DNA of 64,000 nucleotides from Aridibaculum aurantiacum. Its GTDB lineage: Bacteria > Bacteroidota > Bacteroidia > Chitinophagales > Chitinophagaceae. The position numbers and the translations under genes are program-made. Shown one piece after another: positions 35,905-47,504 of the stretch. A model generated the notes under the pieces. That model worked only from the letters and a program-made list of their open reading frames with translations, was not told where the DNA came from and searched no databases. The stretch is from contig NZ_JAFEWC010000003.1 in the NCBI RefSeq assembly GCF_017355875.1, positions 563,001 to 627,000 on the forward strand. Direction: 5' to 3'. How positions within the stretch are numbered: the stretch's first letter is position 1; every line of letters starts with the position of its first letter.

Positions 35905-36041
35905 ACGTGCAACGATAGTGGGATTGTATGTTTGCTTTAAAAGGAACTTGCTCGTTTTAGGCTATAAGTTCTTGTATAACAATTTGTTGGCTTTTTTTGG
36001 CACAAGCTTGGGAAGTCGAGAGCTAACCAAAAAACGCTCTA

Positions 36042-36623
36042 ATGACAAAACTATACTTACTAGTCTCGCTATTGTTTTTCACTACTATTAGCTCTGCTCA
36101 AACTATTGCCACAACTTCAGATGGTCGACAAGTTGTTTTGCTGCCTGATGGCACCTGGCGGTATACCTTCATTAACCAGCAAGGAGGTCAAACAACTAAT
36201 CTGGTTGATACGTATAATAAAGCTTACACTTACGCTTACGATGTAGTGTATGCTGATGAGTTTTTTTCTTCTGAGAGAAGGCTTAAAGCGCAAAGCTGGG
36301 CGCTTGACAATATGCGTCCAGGTATCAGCCTGCCTATTGGTACAAAAAGCCTGGAGCAGTGGTTTGACGAGCTGAACAGCTTTGCCTATGACATGGTTTA
36401 CAAGAATGAATTCTTTCCCGCGGACAGGAGGAAGAAAGCAGCCACGTGGGCAGCACAGCTGCTAAAAGAATCCAGCTGGTACGAAGATTTCCGCCTCAGT
36501 ACAATTGACAAGCACCGGATGGCATACGACCTGGCATACGACCGGATCTTTAAAGAAGAGATGTTTAGGCAGGAGCGTAGAAGAAAGGCGCTGGAGTGGG
36601 CAAATGAATTTGTGAGAAGGTAG
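36042..36623 (+). CDS. Secreted protein with three 50-residue-spaced repeats
   Basis: The 193-residue protein has a signal peptide (cleavage after SSAQ, residue 20) and then the motif TSDGRQVVLLPDGTWRY, found at the start of many Bacteroidota secreted proteins. Three repeats of the pattern AYDxVYxxEFFxxERRxKAxxWA follow at residues 64-87, 114-137 and 161-187. Corresponding aromatic residues (Tyr70, Tyr120, Phe170) are exactly 50 apart. The repeats are helical and amphipathic, with conserved Arg-Arg pairs. I do not know a function; the regular spacing suggests a repeat fold or a scaffold. Confidence 0.7.
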   Translation: MTKLYLLVSLLFFTTISSAQTIATTSDGRQVVLLPDGTWRYTFINQQGGQTTNLVDTYNKAYTYAYDVVYADEFFSSERRLKAQSWALDNMRPGISLPIGTKSLEQWFDELNSFAYDMVYKNEFFPADRRKKAATWAAQLLKESSWYEDFRLSTIDKHRMAYDLAYDRIFKEEMFRQERRRKALEWANEFVRR

Positions 36624-36755
36624 TACCTGTTACTCAAGCATCAACACCAGCTTTAGTGGATTGGAAGAGGTAGTTTACTGTAACAAGATTATCTTAAGGA
36701 TTTGATGCCATGATGCGAGTTTCAAGCAACATGGAAAGAAAGAAAGTGAAACGAC

Positions 36756-37175
36756 TTACTTCATCTTCATCTGCGCAAAATAAGGATGGTCAGGATTGAC
36801 AATGAGTTCCTGGCGTAGCGGGTGGATCAAAACATCCATATCTTCTAAAGGAATAGCACCTAATAGAACTTCAGAATCGCCTGGCAGAACCATTGCTCTG
36901 CAGGTGGTCGCACGGTTTTCAAATCTTAGTTCAACAGGGGCAACTACATCGCACTCAACTATAGAACCATTTGCGAGTTGAGCTTTGCGCTTTTCAACTA
37001 CAGGAAGTTGAAGTTGCTCCTGCAGGTTTTCATTTATTGCCAACATGTATGAACCTGTATCAACAAGTGCTGATACCCTCATCCGCTTTACTTCCTCTTC
37101 TCCAATTATATGCCTTCGGGCTAATGCCAAGTCTTCGCCATTGATCAGTTCTATTTCTGCATATACTAAACCCAT
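36756..37175 (-). CDS. Retropepsin-like aspartic protease family protein
   Basis: The start at 37175 gives 139 residues: MGLVYAEIELIN, then the aspartyl protease signature ALVDTGSYMLAI with DTG, then LANGSIVECDVVAPVELRF and VLLGAIPLEDMDVLI (the flap-to-second-loop region typical of single-domain retropepsin-like proteins). Such proteins dimerise to form the active site. The upstream longer frame (to 37307) lacks coding character. The fold assignment is good; whether it is proteolytically active is not shown, since the family has many uncharacterised bacterial members. Its start faces the fusA promoter. Confidence 0.75.
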   Translation of the reverse strand: MGLVYAEIELINGEDLALARRHIIGEEEVKRMRVSALVDTGSYMLAINENLQEQLQLPVVEKRKAQLANGSIVECDVVAPVELRFENRATTCRAMVLPGDSEVLLGAIPLEDMDVLIHPLRQELIVNPDHPYFAQMKMK

Positions 37176-37306
37176 AGAAAAAGCTTTTCGTAAAAATACT
37201 AATTGCACCAGGTTAAGCAAGATATATCTACCCTTCATTAACCCATTCTTAATCCCACTTTCGATTTTAATTAACCATCTGCTCCTGTTATTACAGATGA
37301 AATTCA

Positions 37307-37314
37307 TACCTTTG
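37307..37314 (+). promoter_or_regulatory. -7 promoter element of fusA
   Basis: TACCTTTG followed by CGCCTCCAAAT, closely like the rpsJ and rpsF promoters. It predicts a leader of about 165 nt before the fusA ATG at 37486. The leader contains a copy of the dispersed repeat. Confidence 0.7.
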
Positions 37315-37390
37315 CGCCTCCAAATCCCTCACCTGCTGGTTTTTACCAGGTTTTAGTGCCAGGAAAACTACAGCAGATTAGCGGATCGTG

Positions 37391-37418
37391 GTACAAGTGT
37401 GCGACGCAACGGCTGCCG
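37391..37418 (+). repeat. Dispersed repeat copy in the fusA leader
   Basis: The full core GTACAAGTGTGCGACGCAAC is present, followed by GGCTGCCG. It lies in the predicted fusA 5' leader, same orientation as fusA, 68 bp before the ATG. Confidence 0.8.
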
Positions 37419-37485
37419 AATAAAGATCGGATGCTGGTTACACACAAAAAAACTCACGTCAATTAACAACACAAATAAACAAGTC

Positions 37486-39633
37486 ATGGCGGACTTAAGG
37501 TATCAAAGAAACTTCGGTATTGCGGCGCACATCGATGCGGGCAAAACGACGACTACAGAACGTATTCTGTATTACACGGGTGTGAACCATAAGATTGGTG
37601 AGGTGCACGATGGTGCAGCTACCATGGACTGGATGGCGCAAGAGCAGGAGAGAGGTATCACAATTACTTCGGCTGCTACCACCTGTTTCTGGAATTTTCC
37701 TACTACACAGGGTCAAAAAAATCCTGACACTAAGCAATACAAATTCAACATTATTGATACTCCGGGTCACGTGGACTTTACCGTAGAGGTGGAGCGTTCT
37801 CTGCGTGTACTTGATGGTTTGCTGGCTTTGTTCTGCGCTGTATCTGGTGTAGAACCTCAGTCTGAAACTGTTTGGCGCCAGGCTAACAGGTATAAAGTTC
37901 CAAGGATTGGTTTTGTAAACAAAATGGACCGTAGCGGTGCTGACTTCCTCAACGTTGTTAAGCAAGTACGTGAAATGCTGGGTGCAAAAGCAGTTCCACT
38001 TCAATTACCAATTGGTGCTGAAGACAACTTCAAAGGTGTGGTTGACCTGATTACTATGAAAGGTATCATTTGGGATGAGGCTAGCCGTGGAATGACTTTC
38101 CAGGAAGTGCCTATTCCTGCTGATATGCAAGAAGAAGTGGATCAGTACCGCCAGGAGCTTGTAGAAGCTGTAGCTGAATACGATGAGGCGCTTCTAGAGA
38201 AGTTCTTCGACGATCCTAACACCATCACTGAAGAAGAAATGCACGAGGCTATCCGTAAGGCTACCATCGACCTTTCTATCATCCCAATGATGTGTGGTTC
38301 TTCATTTAAAAACAAAGGTGTACAAACTGCACTAGATGCCGTTGTACGTTACCTTCCTGGTCCACTGGATATTGAAGCTGTAAAAGGAACTAATCCTGAT
38401 ACTGGTGAAGAAGTTCTTCGTCATGCTGATCCAAAAGGTCCTTTCGCTGCCCTTGCATTCAAGATCATGACTGACCCATTCGTAGGTCGTCTTGCATTCT
38501 TCCGGGCTTATTCTGGTCGCTTAGATTCTGGTTCTTATGTACTGAACGTACGTACTGGAAAGAATGAGCGTATTAGCCGTATCATGCAGATGCATGCTAA
38601 CAAGCAAAACCCTGTAGATTTCATCGAAGCTGGTGATATTGGTGCTGCTGTTGGTTTTAAAGATATCAAAACTGGTGATACCCTTTGTGATGAGAAACAT
38701 CCAGTTGCTCTTGAAAGCATGACTTTCCCTGAGCCGGTAATCTCTATCGCTGTTGAGCCTAAAACACAGGCCGACGTAGATAAAATGGGTATGGCTATCG
38801 CTAAACTGGTAGAAGAGGATCCAACATTGCGCGTTAAGACTGACGAGGACACTGGTCAGACTATCCTTAGCGGAATGGGTGAATTACACCTTGAGATCAT
38901 CGTTGACCGCATGAAGCGTGAATTCAAAGTTGAGATCAACCAGGGTGCTCCTCAGGTTGCTTACAAAGAGGCTTTCACTTCTAAGGTTGAGCACAGAGAG
39001 ACATTGAAAAAGCAAACGGGTGGTCGTGGTAAGTTCGCGGATATCGTATTCGAAATCGGACCTGCTGACGAAGAGTTCCTGAAAGAAGACAAAGGCAACT
39101 TCCAGTTTGTAAACGACATTTTTGGTGGATCAATTCCTCGTGAATTTATTCCAGCTATCCAGAAAGGTTTTGAACAAGCAATGAACACAGGTGTACTGGC
39201 AGCTTATCCTGTTGATAGCATGAAGATCCGTGTATTCGACGGTAGCTTCCACGCTGTTGACTCCGATGCAATGTCATTTGAATTGTGTGCTCGTGCAGGT
39301 TTCCGTACAGCTGGTAAAAAAGCTAAGCCGGTATTGCTTGAGCCGATCATGAAAGTTGAGGTTATCACTCCAGACCAATACATGGGTGATGTAACTGGTG
39401 ACTTGAACCGTCGTCGTGGTATGCTGGAAGGTATGGACAGCCGCGGTGGTGCACAGGTTATCAAGGCTAAAGTTCCTCTGAGCGAAATGTTTGGTTATGT
39501 AACTCAACTTCGTTCATTGTCTTCTGGTCGTGCAACTTCTACCATGGAGTTCAGCCACTACAACCCAGCTCCAAACAACGTAGCTGAAGAAGTGATGGCT
39601 AAGCAAAAAGGTAAATTGAAAGTGGAAGACTAG
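37486..39633 (+). CDS. fusA: Translation elongation factor G
   Basis: EF-G catalyses GTP-driven translocation and, with RRF, ribosome recycling. The start at 37486 gives 715 residues; the longer frame reads through the leader and the dispersed repeat and is rejected. G motifs are canonical: [11 protein letters not shown] (14-24), EQERGITIT (53-61), DTPGHVDF (91-98, with catalytic His95) and NKMDRSGAD (145-153). C-terminal domains IV and V are complete ([20 protein letters not shown]). It is the housekeeping EF-G; a paralog lies 0.8 kb downstream. Confidence 0.97.
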
Positions 39634-39648
39634 TAGTAAGTACTAAGT
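39631..39648 (+). repeat. TAGTAGTAAGTACTAAGT at the fusA stop
   Basis: This 18-bp sequence contains the fusA stop codon and is an exact match to the sequence at the rplW stop, although the two genes are 7 kb apart and unrelated in sequence. Confidence 0.55.
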
Positions 39649-39662
39649 CTAATTAATAAGAT

Positions 39663-39692
39663 AGCCCTGCTCTTTTGAGCAGGGCTTTTTTG
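39663..39692 (+). terminator. Terminator of fusA
   Basis: AGCCCTGCTC (39663-39672) and GAGCAGGGCT (39677-39686) form a perfect ten-pair stem with loop TTTT, followed by a T run. It is among the strongest hairpins in the window. Confidence 0.92.
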
Positions 39693-39722
39693 TTGCGGTC
39701 ATTTGTTATTTTGGCGGCGGTT

Positions 39723-39742
39723 GTTGCGTCGCACACTTGTAC
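39723..39742 (-). repeat. Dispersed repeat copy after fusA
   Basis: On the minus strand these 20 bases are an exact copy of the core GTACAAGTGTGCGACGCAAC. Together with the leader copy at 37391 it places fusA between two inverted copies. Confidence 0.8.
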
Positions 39743-39847
39743 TGCAGTGCAGGAGGCGGCGAGCAAGTAGGAAAGCTTTCAGTAGTTACGAGCAAGGGTA
39801 TAAAATCTATACGGCAGGAGGTTTGTATATTTACTAAAAAGGATTTT

Positions 39848-40072
39848 ATGTCGATAAAGGTAAACGTGGTATTTAGCAGGGATGATGATGGGTACTATGT
39901 ATTTTGTCCTGAACTGCCCGGATGTCATTCACAAGGAGATACTTTTGAAGAGGCTCGCATCAACATCAAAGAGGCGGTAGAGTTGTACCTGGAAACGATG
40001 ACAAAAGAAGAGATAGATAAGGCGCTTGGTAAAGAACTAATAACCACAACCATGGAGGTAGAAGTTGGCTAA
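39848..40072 (+). CDS. hicB: HicB-family antitoxin
   Basis: The 74-residue protein (start at 39848) has the HicB partial RNase H fold: VNVVFSRDDDGYYVFCPELPGCHSQGDTFEEARINIKEAVELYLE, with the typical PELPGC motif. It is short and ends in a charged helix, with no visible ribbon-helix-helix or helix-turn-helix DNA-binding domain, so autoregulation may be weak or depend on the complex. It precedes the toxin gene (hicB then hicA), overlapping it by 8 bp, which suggests coupled translation. The upstream longer frame runs through a dispersed repeat and is rejected. Confidence 0.82.
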   Translation: MSIKVNVVFSRDDDGYYVFCPELPGCHSQGDTFEEARINIKEAVELYLETMTKEEIDKALGKELITTTMEVEVG

Positions 40073-40256
40073 ACAGGTCATACTTACTGCCAGAGAAGCC
40101 GAAAGTCTTCTATTGAAGGCAGGGTTCCAGCTAATACGCAGTAAAGGGAGCCACCGCATATACATGCGTGAAAAGCAAAGGGTGGTAGTTCCTTTTCATT
40201 CTGGAAAAACGCTTCACCCGAAGATTGCAAAGCAGGTACTGGATGCCTGCGAATAA
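40065..40256 (+). CDS. hicA: HicA-family toxin
   Basis: HicA is a small double-stranded RNA-binding-fold mRNA interferase. The 63-residue protein has KAGFQLIRSKGSHRIY with the catalytic-type His30, then VVVPFHSGKTLHPKIAKQVLDA. The TTG start at 40065 is the only start giving the complete domain and lies inside hicB. Length and motif agree with active HicA toxins. The pair is isolated between fusA and its paralog. Confidence 0.82.
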   Translation: MAKQVILTAREAESLLLKAGFQLIRSKGSHRIYMREKQRVVVPFHSGKTLHPKIAKQVLDACE

Positions 40257-40434
40257 GACAAACCTCAGCATCTATCAGCGCCATTATTACCTTCTGATTT
40301 TATGTTTCATCCCTCCCCCTGATTTTAAGCTCCTCTTCTGCTGACAACACTCATATTTTGGTAACTTGTATAGCGTTTAGCTTTGATTAGAAGGCCCTGT
40401 TCTCCATTTTACTTCACCATTCAAACCTATTGCT

Positions 40435-42573
40435 ATGCCAGAATTTGATACCGCACACGTAAAGAACGTTGTACTGCTGGGCCACTCCGGCAGTGGAAAA
40501 ACGACACTTGCTGAAAGCATGTTGTACGAAGCCGGCATGATACATAAACCCGGCAGTATAGAAGAAAAAAATACAGTAGCAGACTATACAGAACTGGAGA
40601 AGGAGCGAGGGAATTCCATCTTTTCAAAACTATTGCACACGCACTGGAAGGGATACAAAATCAATGTGCTTGACACACCCGGTTACGATGATTTTGCCGG
40701 GGAAGTAATCAGTGCTTTGCGTGTGGCCGATACAGGAGTGATGTTGCTGAATGCAAGTACAGGCGTAGAGGTGGGAACAGACATCATCTGGGAGTATATA
40801 CTCCAATTCAAAACACCCACCATTTTTGTTGTCAATCAATTAGATCATCCGCAGGCGGATTTCAATAAAACGGTACAGGAAGCGAAGAACCATTTTGGTA
40901 AAAATGTAGTGCTGGTGCAATACCCGGTCAATGTAGGTCTTGGTTTCAATGCTATCATTGATGTATTGAATATGGTAATGTACCAGTACAAGGATGGAGA
41001 GCGGAAGCCGCATAAACTACCTATTCCAGAAGAAGAAAGAGCACGTGCAGAAGAGCTGCACAAGGAGCTGATAGAAGCCATTGCCAGCAACGATGAAACG
41101 CTAATGGAAACATATTTTGATAAAGGTGAGCTAACAGAAGATGAGATGCGTGCCGGTCTACATCTTTCCATGGTTCGTCACGACTTGTTCCCCGTTTTTT
41201 GTCTGTCAGCAAAACAGCACCGTGGTGTGGCAAGGCTGATGGGGTACATAGATAATGTTTGTCCTCCCTCCAATGAAATGCCACCACAGATCACCCGCAA
41301 AGGCGAGCTATTGCCATGTGATAGTAGTGGTCCTGCTTGCTTGTTCATTTTTAAAACGGTGACAGAACCACATGTAGGTGATCTTAGTTACTTCAAGGTT
41401 TATTCTGGTGTTGTAAAGGCAGGAATGGAACTGGTAAATGAGAATACCGCTGTGACAGAAAAGCTCAACCAGTTGTTTGTTATAGAAGGGAATAAAAGAA
41501 TACCTGTACAGGAACTGGTAGCAGGTGATATTGGAGCCACTTTAAAATTGCGAAACACCCACACCAACAACACGCTACACGAAAAGGGCAAGAACCTGGA
41601 ACTGGAACCAATTGTTTTTCCTGAACCTAAGCTGAGTATAGCCATTGCCAATAACAAAAAAGGTGAAGAAGAAAAGCTAGCCACTGTTCTACACCAGCTA
41701 CAAGAAGAGGATCCTAGTATACAAGTAGAAGTTTCAACTGAAATTGGACAAACGCTACTGCATTGCCAGGGAGATATGCACCTGGCAATAATCAAGTGGA
41801 AGCTGCAGCACTTGTTTCACCTGGATGTACTGTTCACTAAACCACGCATTTCATATCGTGAGACCATACGTAGTGAAGCAGAAGCCACGTATAGACACAA
41901 GAAACAATCGGGTGGTGCCGGACAATTTGGTGAAGTAACACTTCGTATAGAACCATGGAAGGAAGATATGCCTGAGCCTCACGGGCTGACTGTTAGGGGC
42001 AAGGAGGTGCATGAACTGCCATGGGGTGGAAAACTGGTTTATTACAATTGTATTGTAGGAGGTGTAATTGACACTCGTTTCTTGCCATCCATTTACAAAG
42101 GGATTATGGAGCGGATGCAGCAAGGGCCTCTTACCGGTTCTTTTGTACGCGATATAAGAGTATGTGTATTTGATGGAAAGATGCACCCGGTGGACAGCAA
42201 CGATATGGCTTTTAAATCGGCAGGTATGATGGCTTTTAAAGAAGCATTTCAGAAGGCTGATCCGCAACTGTTAGAACCTGTTTATTATGTAGAAGTTCGT
42301 TGCCCTGAAGATCTTACTGGTAATGTAATGGGCGACCTTCAAATGCGCCGTGGCATGGTGGAGGGTATGGAAACAGAAGGTCATTTTACTGTTATTCATG
42401 CTAAAGTACCGCATGCAGAGCTTTACCAGTATGCTTCTGCCTTACGTGGTCTTACCCAGGGCAGGGCTCGTTTTAAAATGAAATTTGATCATTATGCTCC
42501 TGTTTCAGGTGAGCTGCAACGCAGGTTGACTGAAGCATACAGGAAGGAAGGTGTAGAAGCAGTGGCAGTTTAA
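40435..42573 (+). CDS. EF-G paralog (EF-G2-like) with altered GTPase motifs
   Basis: The 712-residue protein has the full five-domain EF-G layout, but its G motifs differ from the true EF-G upstream: P-loop GHSGSGKT (16-23) instead of [17 protein letters not shown] in switch I; DTPGYDDF (80-87), where Tyr84 replaces the catalytic His; and NQLD (134-137) instead of NKMD. The C-terminal GGAGQFGEV and RGLTQGRARF regions are conserved. This pattern is that of the EF-G2 group, some of whose members (in mycobacteria and in Bacteroides) were reported to lack ribosome-stimulated GTP hydrolysis. An alternative or regulatory translocase is likely, but activity here is untested. Confidence 0.9.
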   Translation: MPEFDTAHVKNVVLLGHSGSGKTTLAESMLYEAGMIHKPGSIEEKNTVADYTELEKERGNSIFSKLLHTHWKGYKINVLDTPGYDDFAGEVISALRVADTGVMLLNASTGVEVGTDIIWEYILQFKTPTIFVVNQLDHPQADFNKTVQEAKNHFGKNVVLVQYPVNVGLGFNAIIDVLNMVMYQYKDGERKPHKLPIPEEERARAEELHKELIEAIASNDETLMETYFDKGELTEDEMRAGLHLSMVRHDLFPVFCLSAKQHRGVARLMGYIDNVCPPSNEMPPQITRKGELLPCDSSGPACLFIFKTVTEPHVGDLSYFKVYSGVVKAGMELVNENTAVTEKLNQLFVIEGNKRIPVQELVAGDIGATLKLRNTHTNNTLHEKGKNLELEPIVFPEPKLSIAIANNKKGEEEKLATVLHQLQEEDPSIQVEVSTEIGQTLLHCQGDMHLAIIKWKLQHLFHLDVLFTKPRISYRETIRSEAEATYRHKKQSGGAGQFGEVTLRIEPWKEDMPEPHGLTVRGKEVHELPWGGKLVYYNCIVGGVIDTRFLPSIYKGIMERMQQGPLTGSFVRDIRVCVFDGKMHPVDSNDMAFKSAGMMAFKEAFQKADPQLLEPVYYVEVRCPEDLTGNVMGDLQMRRGMVEGMETEGHFTVIHAKVPHAELYQYASALRGLTQGRARFKMKFDHYAPVSGELQRRLTEAYRKEGVEAVAV

Positions 42574-42599
42574 CAAGGAGCTACCGTTCAACAATATTC

Positions 42600-42625
42600 A
42601 ATACCTCTTCGGAGGTATTTTTATT
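42600..42625 (+). terminator. Terminator of the EF-G paralog
   Basis: AATACCTC and GAGGTATT pair perfectly around a TTCG tetraloop (C-TTCG-G), followed by TTTATTT. Confidence 0.85.
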
Positions 42626-42734
42626 TGAGCCTCTAATGTGTTCTTTTGAAGTTTAGTCCTTGTTGAATAAGAAATAACTTTTTTATACGTTCATTAAGTT
42701 CATTTTAATAATCAAAAACACACAGATGGTTCAC

Positions 42735-44114
42735 ATGAAAAAGATAGTTTTTTTATCGGCACTGGCACTGGCAACTTTTGTTGCTGGAGCACAAGATTTT
42801 CCTGGATTCAGAGTTGGTAACTATACAGGCGTAAACGGCGTCTTCTTCAATCCTGCTAACATTGCGGATAGCCGTTACCGGTTCGATATCAACCTGTTTT
42901 CTGTATCAACCATGGTTGGTCAAAACCAGGCTGCCTTCAAATTGAGCGACATCAATACTTTCGACAGCGATAAGCTGAGTGACAACTTGTTTTCTGGCGG
43001 CGAAGGAAATGTGAATGCACTGGTAAGTGCTAATGTGCAAGGGCCGTCCTTCATGTTCAATCTCAACAAGAAGTCAACTATTGCGGTTACTACCCGTGCA
43101 CGGGCAATGGTAAATGTGGTTGATATCAATGGGAAGTTATTGCAGAACATCATGAATGATCTGAATGCCAATGCTACTTTGCCATATTCCATCAACTCGA
43201 ATGATAATATGCGTGTTGCATTAAATGGATGGTCTGAAATAGGAGCTAGTTATGCTCGTGTTATTTCAGAAAAAGGACCGCATTTTCTAAAGGGTGGAGT
43301 TACATTGAAATATTTAGGCGGTGCAGGCAATGGATTTATAAATGTAGCAAACCTTAAGAGCACCATCAACCAGGATGCATTGGGCGATGTATACCTGAAC
43401 AATACTACCGGTCAAATTGCTGTTGGTTTTGGAGGTAAAAATCTTTCTGGCCTGGAAGCTTCCAACCTGCTGGCAATGGAAAGTAGCGGCTTTGGTGCCG
43501 ACCTTGGCTTTGTATATGAATACAGGCCAGCATCTGCAGGAAACGATGCCAACAAATACAAATTCAAAGTAGGCGTAGCATTGATGGATCTGGGTTCTGT
43601 TCGTTACAAAAAAGATATGGATCGCTCTGGTGCTTATAATCTTGACATCACCGGTTCTGAAAGATTTTATTTACGTGAGATCGAGAACGAAGATCTTGAG
43701 AACTACAACAGGTTCTTTAGGTCACGTCCTCAGTTCTTTACACCATCTGCTTCCAATAGTGAAACTTCTTATTCTGTTTCTCTTCCAAGCACTCTTAATG
43801 TGGATGTAGATTACCACATCAACAAAGGCTTCTATGTTAGTGCTTCAGGCTTGATTTCATTGATGAATAAGAGCAAAGTTGAAAACCCGATGTACTATTC
43901 CAGCTTTGCTGTTACACCCCGTGTAGAAGGAAGGATCTTTGGCGTATACCTGCCCATCAGTTATAATCAACTAACCAATCTTAATGCTGGTTTGTCATTG
44001 CGTATGGGGCCAGTATTCATTGGTTCTGGAAGTATAGTAAGCTTGCTGGTAGGGGAGTCTAAGCAAGCAGACGTACATATAGGTGTGCGTTTTGGCGGAT
44101 TAGTGAAAAAATAA
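42735..44114 (+). CDS. DUF5723 family outer-membrane protein
   Basis: The 459-residue protein (start at 42735; 42726 possible) has a signal peptide ending at AGAQ. Typical DUF5723 features follow: YTGVNGVFFNPANIADSRYRFDINLFSVS at the mature N-terminus, then a long series of beta strands with NP and GG turns, ending LRMGPVFIGSGSIVSLL and VRFGGLVKK. The family is Bacteroidota-specific and predicted to form an outer-membrane barrel like PorP/FadL-type proteins. Role unknown. Monocistronic, with a strong terminator. Confidence 0.82.
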   Translation: MKKIVFLSALALATFVAGAQDFPGFRVGNYTGVNGVFFNPANIADSRYRFDINLFSVSTMVGQNQAAFKLSDINTFDSDKLSDNLFSGGEGNVNALVSANVQGPSFMFNLNKKSTIAVTTRARAMVNVVDINGKLLQNIMNDLNANATLPYSINSNDNMRVALNGWSEIGASYARVISEKGPHFLKGGVTLKYLGGAGNGFINVANLKSTINQDALGDVYLNNTTGQIAVGFGGKNLSGLEASNLLAMESSGFGADLGFVYEYRPASAGNDANKYKFKVGVALMDLGSVRYKKDMDRSGAYNLDITGSERFYLREIENEDLENYNRFFRSRPQFFTPSASNSETSYSVSLPSTLNVDVDYHINKGFYVSASGLISLMNKSKVENPMYYSSFAVTPRVEGRIFGVYLPISYNQLTNLNAGLSLRMGPVFIGSGSIVSLLVGESKQADVHIGVRFGGLVKK

Positions 44115-44135
44115 TTTATAGTTATCAAACCTAAA

Positions 44136-44172
44136 AGAACCTGCTGATCTTTCAGCAGGTTCTTGTTTTTTA
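44136..44172 (+). terminator. Terminator before the S10-spc cluster
   Basis: AGAACCTGCTGA (44136-44147) and TCAGCAGGTTCT (44152-44163) form a perfect twelve-pair stem with loop TCTT, then a T-rich tail. It separates the DUF5723 gene from the ribosomal promoter. Confidence 0.92.
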
Positions 44173-44289
44173 TATAGCTTTATGCTGTACAGAAATAGCT
44201 GTATCATTAAGCGCAGCTTAAAGAACAGCAGGAGTGGCAGCTTTTTTGCATAATTTTTGTCTTTTTCTACAACTTTTCTACAAAAATTG

Positions 44290-44320
44290 TTGGCTGCTAT
44301 AGTGCAACCTCTTACCTTTG
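44290..44320 (+). promoter_or_regulatory. Promoter of the S10-spc ribosomal protein cluster
   Basis: TTG at 44290-44292, a 20-bp spacer, then TACCTTTG at 44313-44320, followed by CGCTCCCAA. The -7 region and its downstream extension are identical over 17 bases to the rpsF promoter. The rpsJ ATG is at 44351, giving a leader of roughly 25 nt. Confidence 0.8.
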
Positions 44321-44350
44321 CGCTCCCAATCACAAAATTGGGTACCGATT

Positions 44351-44656
44351 ATGTCCCAGAGAATCAGAATTAAATTACAGTCTTACGATCACAATTTGGT
44401 AGATAAATCTGCTGAGAAGATCGTAAAAACAGTTCGTAGTACAGGTGCAGTAGTTACAGGTCCTATTCCTCTTCCTACTCAAAAGAAAATCTTCACTGTA
44501 TTGCGTTCACCACACGTTAATAAGAAGGCTCGTGAGCAGTTCCAACTGTGTACTCACAAGAGGTTGTTAGATATTTATACTTCAAGCAGCCGTACTGTAG
44601 ATGCTCTAAGTAAGTTAGATCTGCCTTCTGGAGTAGAAGTAGAGATCAAAGCATAA
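44351..44656 (+). CDS. rpsJ: 30S ribosomal protein uS10
   Basis: The 101-residue protein opens [17 protein letters not shown] and contains [28 protein letters not shown] and [12 protein letters not shown], the uS10 signature. It is the first gene of the S10-spc cluster. The longer frame from 44318 overlaps the promoter and is rejected. A 360-bp gap separates it from rplC, which is unusual. Confidence 0.97.
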
Positions 44657-45016
44657 GGCTTTGCCAGAATTGTCTGGGCCAGTTTACTGGTAACATTTAG
44701 TTCTTTTTTAAATCGGGTTCTTATTTACCAACTAAATGGTAAAATGAATAACCTGGTATTTCATCTGCGAAAACTGTTGGTGCAGGAATAAGCAGCGCTG
44801 AAACATTTGAAATTTTCATTCTTCAACAAGTGTTGAAGGCAAACATATGAACAAGCCCTTCGAGGTTTGTTTACCTCCGGTACTTCCCCTTCTGCTTTGG
44901 CAGGATACTCAGGAAAAGGTCGGCGGCAAACAGAGGATTGAAATCCTTCTTTTGTCCACCAAACAAAAGAAATAAAAAGGATTGTCCTTACACCATCGGG
45001 GCATAAACCACAAACA
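44657..45016 (+). other. Structured rpsJ-rplC intercistronic region
   Basis: This 360-bp gap holds no supported gene. Several hairpins are visible: TTTACCA/TGGTAAA (44724-44743), CTTCAAC/GTTGAAG with loop AAGT (44821-44838), GAGGT/ACCTC (around 44858-44873) and TTCTTTTGT/ACAAAAGAA (44947-44971), the last 45 bp before rplC. It differs from the other gaps in the cluster, which hold word-repeats. In enterobacteria L4 regulates the S10 operon through its leader; a comparable control region here is an inference. Confidence 0.5.
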
Positions 45017-45634
45017 ATGAAAGGTATTATTGGTAAAAAGATCGGGATGACCAGCATCTTCGGCACCGATGGTAAGCAAACAGCTTGCACCATCATCGAA
45101 GCTGGTCCGTGCCTGGTAACCCAGGTGAAAACGCAGGAAACTGACGGTTACAACGCTCTTCAGATCGCTTACGGCGACAAGAAAGAAAAGAACTCCACAA
45201 AGGCCGAAATCAATCACTTTGCAAAGGCCAACACTACCGCTAAACGCGTAGTAAAAGAATTAAGAAACTCCTCTCTGGAAAAAGCACTTGGTGAATCAAT
45301 TACCGTTGACATTTTTGCTGAAGGCGAGAATGTAGAAGTAGTAGGTACTACAAAAGGTAAAGGTTTCCAGGGTGTTGTTAAGCGTCATGGCTTCCATGGT
45401 GTGGGTGAGGCTTCTCACGGACAACACGATCGTCAAAGAGCTCCAGGTTCTGTAGGTGGATCATCATATCCTTCACGAGTTTTTAAAGGTATGCGCATGG
45501 CTGGCCGTATGGGTCAAGACCGCGTGAAGGTGAAAGGACTGAAAATCGTTAAGATCTTCCCTGAAAAGAATTACATATTAATCAGTGGTTCAGTTCCTGG
45601 CCACAATGGTTCCATCGTTTTAATTCAGAAATAA
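45017..45634 (+). CDS. rplC: 50S ribosomal protein uL3
   Basis: The 205-residue protein begins [16 protein letters not shown] and carries the long uL3 loop [18 protein letters not shown] followed by [15 protein letters not shown], which reaches the peptidyl-transferase centre. The C-terminus [13 protein letters not shown] is standard. It lies 2 bp before rplD. Confidence 0.97.
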
Positions 45635-45636
45635 TT

Positions 45637-46275
45637 ATGCAACTAGATATTTTCAATATAAAAGGCGAAAAGACCGGTAGAACTATTGAACTTCCGGAAG
45701 AGATCTTTGGTGCTGAGCCAAATGAGCATGTCGTTTACCTTGCTGTAAAGCAATATTTAGCTGCAGCTCGCCAGGGTACACACAAAGTAAAAACCCGTGC
45801 TGAAGTACAAGGTGCAAGCCGCAAACTTCATAAGCAAAAGGGAACTGGTGGTAGCCGTAAAGGTAACATCCGTAACCCTCTATACAAAGGTGGTGGTACT
45901 ATCTTCGGACCTAAACCTCACCGTTACGATATTAAGTTGAACCGTAAAGTGAAAGATCTTGCTAAGATCAGTGCACTTTCTGCTAAGGCTAAGGAGAATT
46001 CAATTGTAGTTATCGAAGACATCAACTTCGCTACACCTAAAACAAAAGAATTTACCACTGTGATGAGTGCTTTGAATGTAGATGGTAAAAAAGCTCTTTT
46101 TGTTATACCTGAATACAACGAAGCATTATACCTGAGCAGCAGAAACATTCCTAATGCTGATACAGCTTTACTAAGCGACATCAACACTTACGAGATTGTA
46201 AATGCAGATGTACTGGTATTTACCGAAGGTGCAGCAAAAATACTAACAGAAGCTGACGCAGAGGTAGCAGCATAA
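45637..46275 (+). CDS. rplD: 50S ribosomal protein uL4
   Basis: The 212-residue protein has the uL4 tunnel-loop sequence VKTRAEVQGASRKLHKQKGTG followed by GSRKGNIRNPLYKGGG and FGPKPH. In other bacteria uL4 is the autogenous regulator of the S10 operon; here the long structured gap upstream of rplC is the only obvious candidate target. Confidence 0.96.
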   Translation: MQLDIFNIKGEKTGRTIELPEEIFGAEPNEHVVYLAVKQYLAAARQGTHKVKTRAEVQGASRKLHKQKGTGGSRKGNIRNPLYKGGGTIFGPKPHRYDIKLNRKVKDLAKISALSAKAKENSIVVIEDINFATPKTKEFTTVMSALNVDGKKALFVIPEYNEALYLSSRNIPNADTALLSDINTYEIVNADVLVFTEGAAKILTEADAEVAA

Positions 46276-46300
46276 TTGACAACTATTCAAATTAAGAATA

Positions 46301-46600
46301 ATGAGACTCGCAGAAGTTTTAGTAAAGCCGATACTTACCGAAAAAGCAAATGCTCAGCAAGACAAGTTGAGGAGATATGCTTTCAAAGTGGCACGTAAAG
46401 CAAACAAGCTTGAGATAAAAAAAGCTATTGAAGAATTTTACGGTGTAACTGTTACAGATGTGAACACTTCTGTAGTACCAGGTAAAAACAAGACCCGCTA
46501 CACAAAAGCAGGTTTTGTAAAAGGCCAAAAGCCAGCTTACAAAAAAGCGTTGGTTACCGTAGCTGAAGGTGAAACAATTGACCTGTACGGAACTCTTTAG
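46301..46600 (+). CDS. rplW: 50S ribosomal protein uL23
   Basis: The 99-residue protein shows VLVKPILTEKANAQQDKLRRYAFKVARKANKLEIKKAIEEFYGV and the basic VVPGKNKTRYTKAGF loop of uL23, which lines the exit tunnel and docks SRP and trigger factor. Its stop codon begins the word TAGTAGTAAGTACTAAGT, also found at the end of fusA. Confidence 0.95.
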   Translation: MRLAEVLVKPILTEKANAQQDKLRRYAFKVARKANKLEIKKAIEEFYGVTVTDVNTSVVPGKNKTRYTKAGFVKGQKPAYKKALVTVAEGETIDLYGTL

Positions 46601-46626
46601 TAGTAAGTACTAAGTATTAAGTAACA
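46598..46626 (+). repeat. TAAGTACTAAGTATTAAGT word run after rplW
   Basis: Three AAGTA/AAGT words follow the rplW stop. The first 18 bases, TAGTAGTAAGTACTAAGT, are identical to the sequence spanning the stop codon of fusA (39631-39648). Confidence 0.55.
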
Positions 46627-46664
46627 CAAAGTATGGTCGGCAAGACCGCAAAAATTGCAATAAA

Positions 46665-47504
46665 ATGGCATTAAGAAAATACAAACCAACAACAGCAGGC
46701 ACCAGGTGGAGAATTGGTAACGCCTATGCTGAGATCACTTCCGATACTCCTGAAAAGAGTTTGCTTGAATCTAAGAAAAGAACTGGTGGTAGAAACTTCC
46801 AGGGTAGAAGAGCAATGAGGTACATCGGTGGTGGACACAAGAAGCAGTACCGTATCATCGATTTCAAGAGAAACAAATTTGATATCCCTGCTACTGTTGC
46901 AACTATAGAATACGATCCAAACCGTACTGCATTTATAGCCCTGCTAAACTATGCTGACGGTGAAAAAAGATACATCATTGCTCCGCAAGGACTACAGGTA
47001 GGTGCTACTATTGTTAGTGGTGCTACTGCTCCTCCGGATCTTGGTAACGCGCTTCCAATGAAGAACATGCCACTGGGTACTGTTATTCACAACGTAGAAA
47101 TGCAGCCAGGTCAGGGTGGTAAACTGGTAAGAAGTGCGGGTACATCTGCACAGCTTAGCAACAAAGAAGAAAGATACGCTGTACTGAAAATGCCAAGTGG
47201 TGAGCTGCGTAAAGTATTGATCAACTGTTTTGCTACAGTAGGTGTAGTAAGCAACAGCGATCATAGCTTGCAAAGCATGGGTAAAGCTGGCCGTAACGTA
47301 TGGAAAGGTATTCGCCCTCGCGTACGTGGTGTAGCTATGAACCCTGTAGATCACCCAATGGGTGGTGGTGAAGGTAGAGCATCTGGAGGTCAGCCTCGTA
47401 GCAGAACCGGTCAGTACTCTCGTGGTCTTAAGACACGTACCAAAGGAAAATCAAGCGATAAGCTGATCATCCAAAGAAGTAACGGTAAGAAACTGGCAAA
47501 ATAA
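46665..47504 (+). CDS. rplB: 50S ribosomal protein uL2
   Basis: The 279-residue protein is uL2, a 23S-binding protein essential for subunit association and the peptidyl-transferase centre. Landmarks are the [13 protein letters not shown] start, [47 protein letters not shown] and the C-terminal [17 protein letters not shown] with the conserved His. The downstream gap to rpsS holds a word-repeat hairpin. Confidence 0.97.

Follow-up and report, generated by a model that had tools for sequence, protein, structure and literature searches.

The closest described relatives of the gene considered here, which encodes an accessory elongation factor G (EF-G2) of Aridibaculum aurantiacum, are the EF-G2 proteins of Bacteroides thetaiotaomicron, Thermus thermophilus and Mycolicibacterium smegmatis. 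The gene lies on the forward strand of a stretch of 64,000 nucleotides (contig NZ_JAFEWC010000003.1, positions 563,001 to 627,000), hereafter the window; papers are cited by PubMed Central identifier. B. thetaiotaomicron EF-G2 (BT2167, fusA2; structures 8dmf and 7uvp) is reported to enable GTP-independent translation (PMC10294740), and the same work is cited for an EF-G paralogue able to translocate with no hydrolysis of GTP (PMC12775393). Carbon limitation induces the B. thetaiotaomicron gene 238-fold, a response that depends on BT4338 (PMC10294740; also PMC6989115, PMC10994844), BT4338 being the regulator Cur (PMC6989115). T. thermophilus EF-G-2 (1wdt, 2dy1) is reported to have ribosome-dependent GTPase activity (PMC3832671, PMC9067457) and a higher intrinsic activity (PMC3150367), whereas M. 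smegmatis EF-G2 (9k0z) is reported to lack ribosome-dependent GTPase activity (PMC3832671, PMC9067457). No study of an EF-G2 from free-living Bacteroidota was found in the literature searched, which is not proof that none exists.

The window gene has an intact frame of 712 amino acids (aa) that opens with an ATG at 40435 and whose stop codon ends at 42573. Its product is a member of the EFG II subfamily, within the Bacteroidota EF-G2 clade that includes B. thetaiotaomicron EF-G2, and is thus of an already known kind. A preliminary description of the window had called it an EF-G paralogue with DTPGY (Tyr84) in switch II and NQLD at residues 134-137; its coordinates, length and motifs are all correct. 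Three further departures from EF-G were recognized here: a GHSGSGKT P-loop, an RGNSI G2 motif and, at residues 515-531, an insert in domain IV. The features of the gene are as follows, with counts out of 104 referring to the insert-bearing EF-G2s aligned below.

40435..42573 (+): EF-G2 gene, EFG II subfamily, 712 aa, all five EF-G domains
40480..40503 (+): G1/P-loop GHSGSGKT, residues 16-23; Gly16, and then Leu25, are EFG II marks (PMC3150367)
40606..40620 (+): G2 motif RGNSI, residues 58-62, against RGITI, from the alignment
40684..40686 (+): codon of Tyr84, which replaces the switch II His, in motif D80-T-P-G-Y84
40834..40845 (+): G4 motif NQLD, residues 134-137, against NKMD, from the alignment
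41890..41913 (+): domain IV loop I YRHKKQSG, residues 486-493, identical in 68/104; KQ(S/T)G in 104/104
41977..42027 (+): domain IV insert relative to E. coli EF-G, residues 515-531, 17 aa; Arg521 in 103/104, Trp530-Gly531 in 104/104
42184..42186 (+): codon of His584, the domain IV loop II His, retained as in EF-G; 104/104

With B. thetaiotaomicron EF-G2, the window protein shares its clade, 49% identity over nearly the full length, the NQLD motif, the domain IV insert and the loss of the switch II His. T. thermophilus EF-G-2 resembles it as an EFG II protein with Tyr at the His site, a GHxGSGKT P-loop and a guanine motif other than NKMD; it differs in its reported GTPase activity, in having Thr in G2 and in falling outside the Bacteroidota clade, on a long branch. 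M. smegmatis EF-G2 is likewise an EFG II protein, with DTPGY and Ser in G2, yet it occupies another long branch and has a GPSGGGKT P-loop and TKLD. The fusA-encoded EF-G of the same genome has the five-domain plan and the domain IV loop II His in common with the window EF-G2, but only 33% identity, other G motifs and no Trp-Gly insert.

We consider it fairly probable that the window protein is an accessory EFG II elongation factor, orthologous to Bacteroides EF-G2, that acts as a slow, conditional back-up translocase. It would most likely bind GTP and the ribosome, its conserved domain IV would move tRNA and mRNA, and it would serve as a slow reserve to the fusA EF-G under particular conditions. 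The family and clade, the intact gene, the altered nucleotide site and the retained residues at the tip of domain IV are direct observations; translocase activity and conditional use are inferred.

Family and phylogenetic placement

In EFG II, residues 16 and 25 of the P-loop region are Gly and Leu, where EFG I has Ala and Thr, and G2 lacks the RGITI consensus, its fourth residue being Ser or Thr (Margus et al. 2011, PMC3150367). The window protein has Gly16, Leu25 and RGNSI and groups apart from EFG I. It scores 897.6 bits against the NCBIfam elongation factor G subfamily model NF009381, over the cut-off of 583, and 567.9 bits against the canonical EF-G model TIGR00484, under the cut-off of 659.4. 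The EF-G-like protein EF-G2 model NF009377, presumably actinobacterial in scope, gives 518 bits, under its cut-off of 890. Identity to 18 named relatives is 64-81%.

The closest solved chain by sequence is 7uvp_A (also 8dmf), with 739.7 bits and 49% identity. For an AlphaFold2 model built from 22 sequences (mean predicted local distance difference test score, pLDDT, 89.2), Foldseek likewise ranks 8dmf first (49% identity, template modelling score 0.90). The chain files of 7uvp and 8dmf bear the molecule name 'Tetracycline resistance protein TetQ', which is misleading for annotation, and this name is what would suggest that the window protein is a tetracycline ribosomal protection protein. The title of 8dmf reads 'Cryo-EM structure of the ribosome-bound Bacteroides thetaiotaomicron EF-G2', and the window protein reaches 295 of the 775 bits asked by the protection model NF012153 and 143.9 of the 1425 bits asked by the Tet(Q) model NF012154; this explanation was rejected and has a negligible probability.

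A tree of 74 proteins, made by quick search with Shimodaira–Hasegawa-like approximate likelihood ratio supports, no bootstrap and a star threshold of 95 set by the tool, splits EFG II from EF-G with a support of 100. In it, the insert-bearing Bacteroidota EF-G2s form one clade (support 94, unstarred), inside which the window and B. thetaiotaomicron proteins share a subclade (92, unstarred). The rows nearest to the window protein are L044 (uncultured Bacteroidetes), L029, L048 and L021; L029 and L021 belong to the window's own family by taxonomic codes and L048 is named Chitinophagaceae. In a second tree of 76 rows, limited to the G domain, M. smegmatis and T. thermophilus EF-G2 fall on the EFG II side and outside the Bacteroidota clade, with a support of 100 for the branch to EF-G, T. 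thermophilus EF-G-2 included. There, the insert-bearing proteins fall just short of a single clade, L117 lying outside. This tree is weak: the two long branches of the M. smegmatis and T. thermophilus fragments join, and more than half of the inner branches (39 of 73) are unresolved. The preliminary description had linked the protein to Bacteroides EF-G2, not ordinary EF-G, and had named grouping with ordinary EF-G as the outcome that would speak against it; no such grouping was observed, and profile scores, tree and Foldseek all support the link.

Nucleotide site and domain IV across the clade

We aligned 129 proteins and, after removal of two duplicates and the partial L031, compared 126: 10 canonical EF-Gs, 104 insert-bearing EF-G2s (102 fetched loci, the window and B. 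thetaiotaomicron) and 12 EF-G2s without the insert. The loci were the best-scoring ones plus about one picked per genus, not a random sample, and the motif-based classes coincided with the BLAST-score classes in every case. His occupies the switch II site in 10/10 canonical EF-Gs and never in the insert-bearing EF-G2s, which have Tyr in 62, Thr in 13, Leu in 12, Phe in 11, Ser in 3, Ala in 2 and Pro in 1; the EF-G2s without insert have Tyr in 10 and Leu in 2. The site has changed at least 14 times on the 74-protein tree, His included. These many states and changes indicate that the constraint evident at this site in EF-G does not apply in EF-G2. Among EF-G2s, Tyr is the commonest state of the site and probably the oldest, since most deep branches have it (L128/L129, with Leu, do not). 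Apart from Tyr, the replacement that most clearly marks a whole clade is Thr, whose 13 bearers (L079, L082-L085, L087-L089, L092-L094, L096, L097) are represented in the tree by one six-row clade with L095 (Ser) among them.

The Lys of NKxD is similarly variable in the insert-bearing EF-G2s (Lys in 46, Gln in 44, His in 13, Ala in 1, hence replaced in 58) and is kept in all 12 EF-G2s without the insert; NQLD itself is common in the clade (29/104). Tyr84 and NQLD are thus family traits, not peculiar to the window gene, and do not predict activity. In the window EF-G2, Gly19 replaces the Asp of the EF-G P-loop, and Asn60 and Ser61 replace the first Ile and the Thr of the EF-G G2 motif. Positions 18 and 60, which we take to be the equivalents of the EF-Tu hydrophobic gate of the catalytic His, hold Ile in 10/10 EF-Gs and in 0/104 insert-bearing EF-G2s; among those without insert, 6 of 12 have Ile at position 60. 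These twelve proteins (L119-L130), from other lineages of the phylum, lack both insert and His and are a natural control for what the insert does.

Relative to E. coli EF-G, domain IV is longer by 26 residues in B. thetaiotaomicron EF-G2 and by 17 (515-531) in the window protein. The segment has the window's length in 98 of the 104 proteins, is 9 residues longer in three (B. thetaiotaomicron, L051 and L052) and 1-2 residues longer in the other three; L051 and L052 are also the two best-scoring loci of the phylum survey. Arg521 is present in all but one of the 104 and Trp530 and Gly531 in all, and the AlphaFold2 model places a strand at 522-527, with a mean pLDDT of 88 for residues 511-520 and 92 for 521-530. 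Han et al. (2023, EMBO J) reportedly found that a 26-residue region unique to EF-G2 causes the lack of GTPase activity and is needed for release. We infer its identity with the domain IV insert, because the B. thetaiotaomicron count against E. coli EF-G is exactly 26; the available excerpts of three citing papers hold no description of it. If the two are the same, the window EF-G2 has a shorter, conserved form of the region. The shared insert is a more telling family feature than Tyr84.

Domain IV also stands apart in overall conservation. In 14 genomes with both proteins, mean pairwise identities for EF-G and EF-G2, respectively, are 78.0 and 63.6% in the G domain, 78.1 and 57.2% in domain II, 82.1 and 52.1% in domain III, 70.8 and 72.9% in domain IV, and 79.0 and 54.0% in domain V. 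EF-G is the more alike of the two in 91, 90, 91 and 90 of the 91 genome pairs, which are not independent of one another, for domains I, II, III and V, and in 33 of 91 for domain IV. A similar contrast between domains has been described for EFG II generally (Margus et al. 2011, PMC3150367). The pattern fits an EF-G2 kept for a role of domain IV on the ribosome, with its GTP engine under weaker or different constraint.

Two other explanations bear on these data. The loss of several catalytic residues could suggest a decaying EF-G duplicate with a dead G domain. We regard this as very improbable: internal stops are absent from all 70 EF-G2s in the family survey, the 104 all retain Trp530, Gly531 and His584, and the rate of nonsynonymous substitution (dN) to five relatives is 0.14-0.20 where the synonymous rate (dS) is not finite for any of the five, so that no dN/dS ratio is given. 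Length is no evidence against decay, because the 104 are full-length by selection and the 530-aa L031, on a short contig, was dropped. Alternatively, the protein might be a specialized ribosome recycling or rescue factor, like mitochondrial or Borrelia EF-G2, and not a translocase. EF-G pairs with one function each have been described (PMC9067457), and the model aligns with mtEFG2 (7nsh, Z 50.3, rank 9). This fold score cannot separate translocases from recycling factors, and many canonical EF-Gs score alike; moreover, the loop II His is universal in the 104, and the conservation of loops I and II in EF-G2 is close to that in EF-G, which makes a pure recycling factor improbable.

GTP hydrolysis on the ribosome

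Tyr84 had been taken in the preliminary description as a sign of lost GTPase activity, a step that is not supported. Tyr is found in the reportedly active T. thermophilus EF-G-2 (DAPGY and TKLD) and in the reportedly inactive M. smegmatis EF-G2 (DTPGY and TKLD), so that Tyr84 alone does not decide the matter, and B. thetaiotaomicron EF-G2 has Ser at the His site (DCPGS). Of the wider interpretation offered there, the kinship with Bacteroides EF-G2 is supported and the step from Tyr84 is not; the proximity of fusA and hicBA has no parallel in the relative loci covered.

The window protein could instead hydrolyse GTP on the ribosome with Tyr84, as T. thermophilus EF-G-2 is reported to do, and be a slower but ordinary GTP-driven translocase. 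It shares with that reportedly GTPase-active protein both the Tyr and the P-loop His (GHxGSGKT), and both EF-G2 groups have Tyr at the site more often than any other residue (62/104 and 10/12). Against this, the closer relative, B. thetaiotaomicron EF-G2, reportedly lacks GTPase activity (PMC12775393, PMC10294740). Replacement of the corresponding His by Tyr in IF2 abolished ribosome-dependent GTPase while ribosome-independent activity was kept (PMC7037019), and among E. coli EF-G H91 mutants hydrolysis is wild-type-like for Q and impaired for A, R and E (PMC4532990). The Ser in G2 is shared with both EF-G2s reported as inactive, T. thermophilus having Thr, a comparison of three proteins only. 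We regard the GTP-driven alternative as a serious, though secondary, possibility, and lean modestly towards a window EF-G2 without efficient GTP hydrolysis on the ribosome, on the grounds not of Tyr84 but of its kinship with B. thetaiotaomicron EF-G2 and the insert that both have in domain IV.

Several observations weigh against extending the B. thetaiotaomicron findings in this way, the reported GTPase activity of T. thermophilus EF-G-2 being one. B. thetaiotaomicron EF-G2 sits on a long branch (1.01 in the 74-protein tree) and differs from the window protein in having Ser for Tyr in a DCPG context, YGYSV in place of RGNSI in G2, GSSGSGKT in G1 and an insert 9 residues longer; with these differences and the long branch, its biochemistry may not carry over. 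The narrow NCBIfam model for the B. thetaiotaomicron type, NF058620 (EFG2_Bacteroid), gives 975.2 bits to the window protein, which is not filed under it because the cut-off is 1000, while a protein passes it in 12/39 genomes of relatives. By VIA-align many EF-Gs score alike, several canonical ones above 8dmf (rank 13). As for regulation, the Cur operator TATGTTnTAnAACATA, searched with up to 3 mismatches, has 6 sites in the window against 5.6 expected, none near the EF-G2 gene, unlike the Cur-controlled B. thetaiotaomicron gene; a looser Cur core and a CRP-like palindrome were each found in 0/31 upstream regions (the window and 30 relatives). Regulators other than Cur may act on the gene.

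GTP independence of the window EF-G2 is plausible, as is a starvation or energy-saving role, and an accessory translocase for lean conditions remains the most likely description. A broader proposal would see in the entire Bacteroidota EF-G2 clade an ancient group of translocases independent of GTP hydrolysis, in which the His and its gate were lost once and the insert, with Arg521 and Trp530-Gly531, took over release of the factor; Tyr would be the ancestral replacement and B. thetaiotaomicron EF-G2, with its longer insert, a late form tuned to the gut. We offer this only tentatively and consider it rather unlikely as a whole. If the B. thetaiotaomicron type of GTP-saving translocase did extend across the phylum, slow, GTP-sparing translation would be a general Bacteroidota strategy and not a gut adaptation. 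The clade amounts to a natural experiment, with seven residues replacing the catalytic His in 104 members, one insert nearly constant and 12 relatives without it, and its members allow a comparison of whether His, gate or insert sets GTPase activity. As far as the window itself goes, the outcome chiefly corrects how Tyr84 and NQLD are to be read.

Genomic setting, expression and distribution

The surroundings of the gene contain the following features.

37486..39633 (+): canonical fusA (EF-G), with DTPGH and NKMD
39663..39686 (+): terminator-like hairpin 3' of fusA, before hicBA and the EF-G2 gene, from a hairpin scan
39848..40072 (+): HicB-like antitoxin gene, 74 aa, not counted in the EF-G2 unit
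40065..40256 (+): HicA-like toxin gene, 63 aa, not counted in the EF-G2 unit
40357..40385 (+): promoter-like TTTG-N17-TAnnTTTG of Bacteroidota type; weak, with 4 matches in the window against 3.7 expected
42600..42619 (+): terminator-like hairpin 3' of the EF-G2 gene, from the same scan

The neighbouring fusA is canonical and lies 801 bp upstream, in line with the 0.8 kb given previously, and the gene order between the two EF-G genes is hicB-hicA. Hairpins after both fusA and the EF-G2 gene, together with the match to what we take to be the Bacteroidota promoter consensus, make the EF-G2 gene look like a transcription unit of its own, which it probably is. The whole stretch has 6 terminator-like hairpins against 2.6 expected, and the window's is the only one of the 31 upstream regions with the promoter-like match. 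The commonest 8-mers shared by these regions are A/T-rich and occur in at most 7/31, and Rfam at gathering thresholds finds no RNA element in 36000-46000. The genome has 11 cyclic nucleotide monophosphate-binding domain matches, so that regulators of that broad class exist in it; a connection to EF-G2 is not established.

Closeness to fusA and hicBA had earlier been thought notable, but it has no parallel in 38 relative loci. By tblastn with the window genes, fusA, hicB, hicA and the DUF5723 gene were found at none of 19 EF-G2 loci (the 18 named relatives and L154), and hicBA, EF-G2 and the DUF5723 gene at none of 19 fusA loci (L139-L153, L155-L158), with the qualification that some loci span little sequence (4.2 kb for L040, 3.4 kb for L142) and that diverged copies of the short HicA and HicB could be missed. 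In the family survey, no other carrier among the matches listed has fusA and EF-G2 within 10 kb on one contig. These 0/38 loci speak against a conserved functional link of EF-G2 with fusA or hicBA, which was rejected.

In 37486-47504, hicBA, the EF-G2 gene and the DUF5723 gene stand between fusA and a run of rpsJ-rplC-rplD-rplW-rplB. At 4/19 relative fusA loci rpsJ is near fusA without hicBA, EF-G2 or DUF5723, and the fetched stretches of the other 15 contain no rpsJ. Upstream of fusA, a gene at 36756-37307 (-) resembles clan AA aspartic proteases (TIGR03698, 54.6 bits against a cut-off of 57.35); it adjoins fusA at one of the 19 relative loci (L145, 81%).

Measured against ribosomal protein genes, the codon adaptation of EF-G2 reaches 0.594 and that of fusA 0.754; the two rank above 9 and 26, respectively, of 30 open reading frames in the window (the 30 may include both). 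The codon usage of EF-G2 is thus not tuned like that of fusA, which fits a conditional factor and equally any ordinary gene.

Across the phylum, 109 of 296 sampled genomes (at least 90% complete, own genome included) have an EF-G2 model match above 700 bits; these and the following counts include some incomplete genomes. Among close relatives, EF-G2 is found in 19/39, own genome included, one of the 19 being partial. In the family it occurs in 70 of 146 genomes at least 95% complete, each with a match of at least 904 bits to the window protein; the next match, at 415 bits, is at the level of ordinary EF-G. Presence within the family is sporadic, down to the genus, where 3/10 genomes, own included, have the gene. 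Three genomes of the same family (G015, G357 and G452) have three EF-G-type matches each, those of G015 being one EF-G2 and two that score like canonical EF-G.

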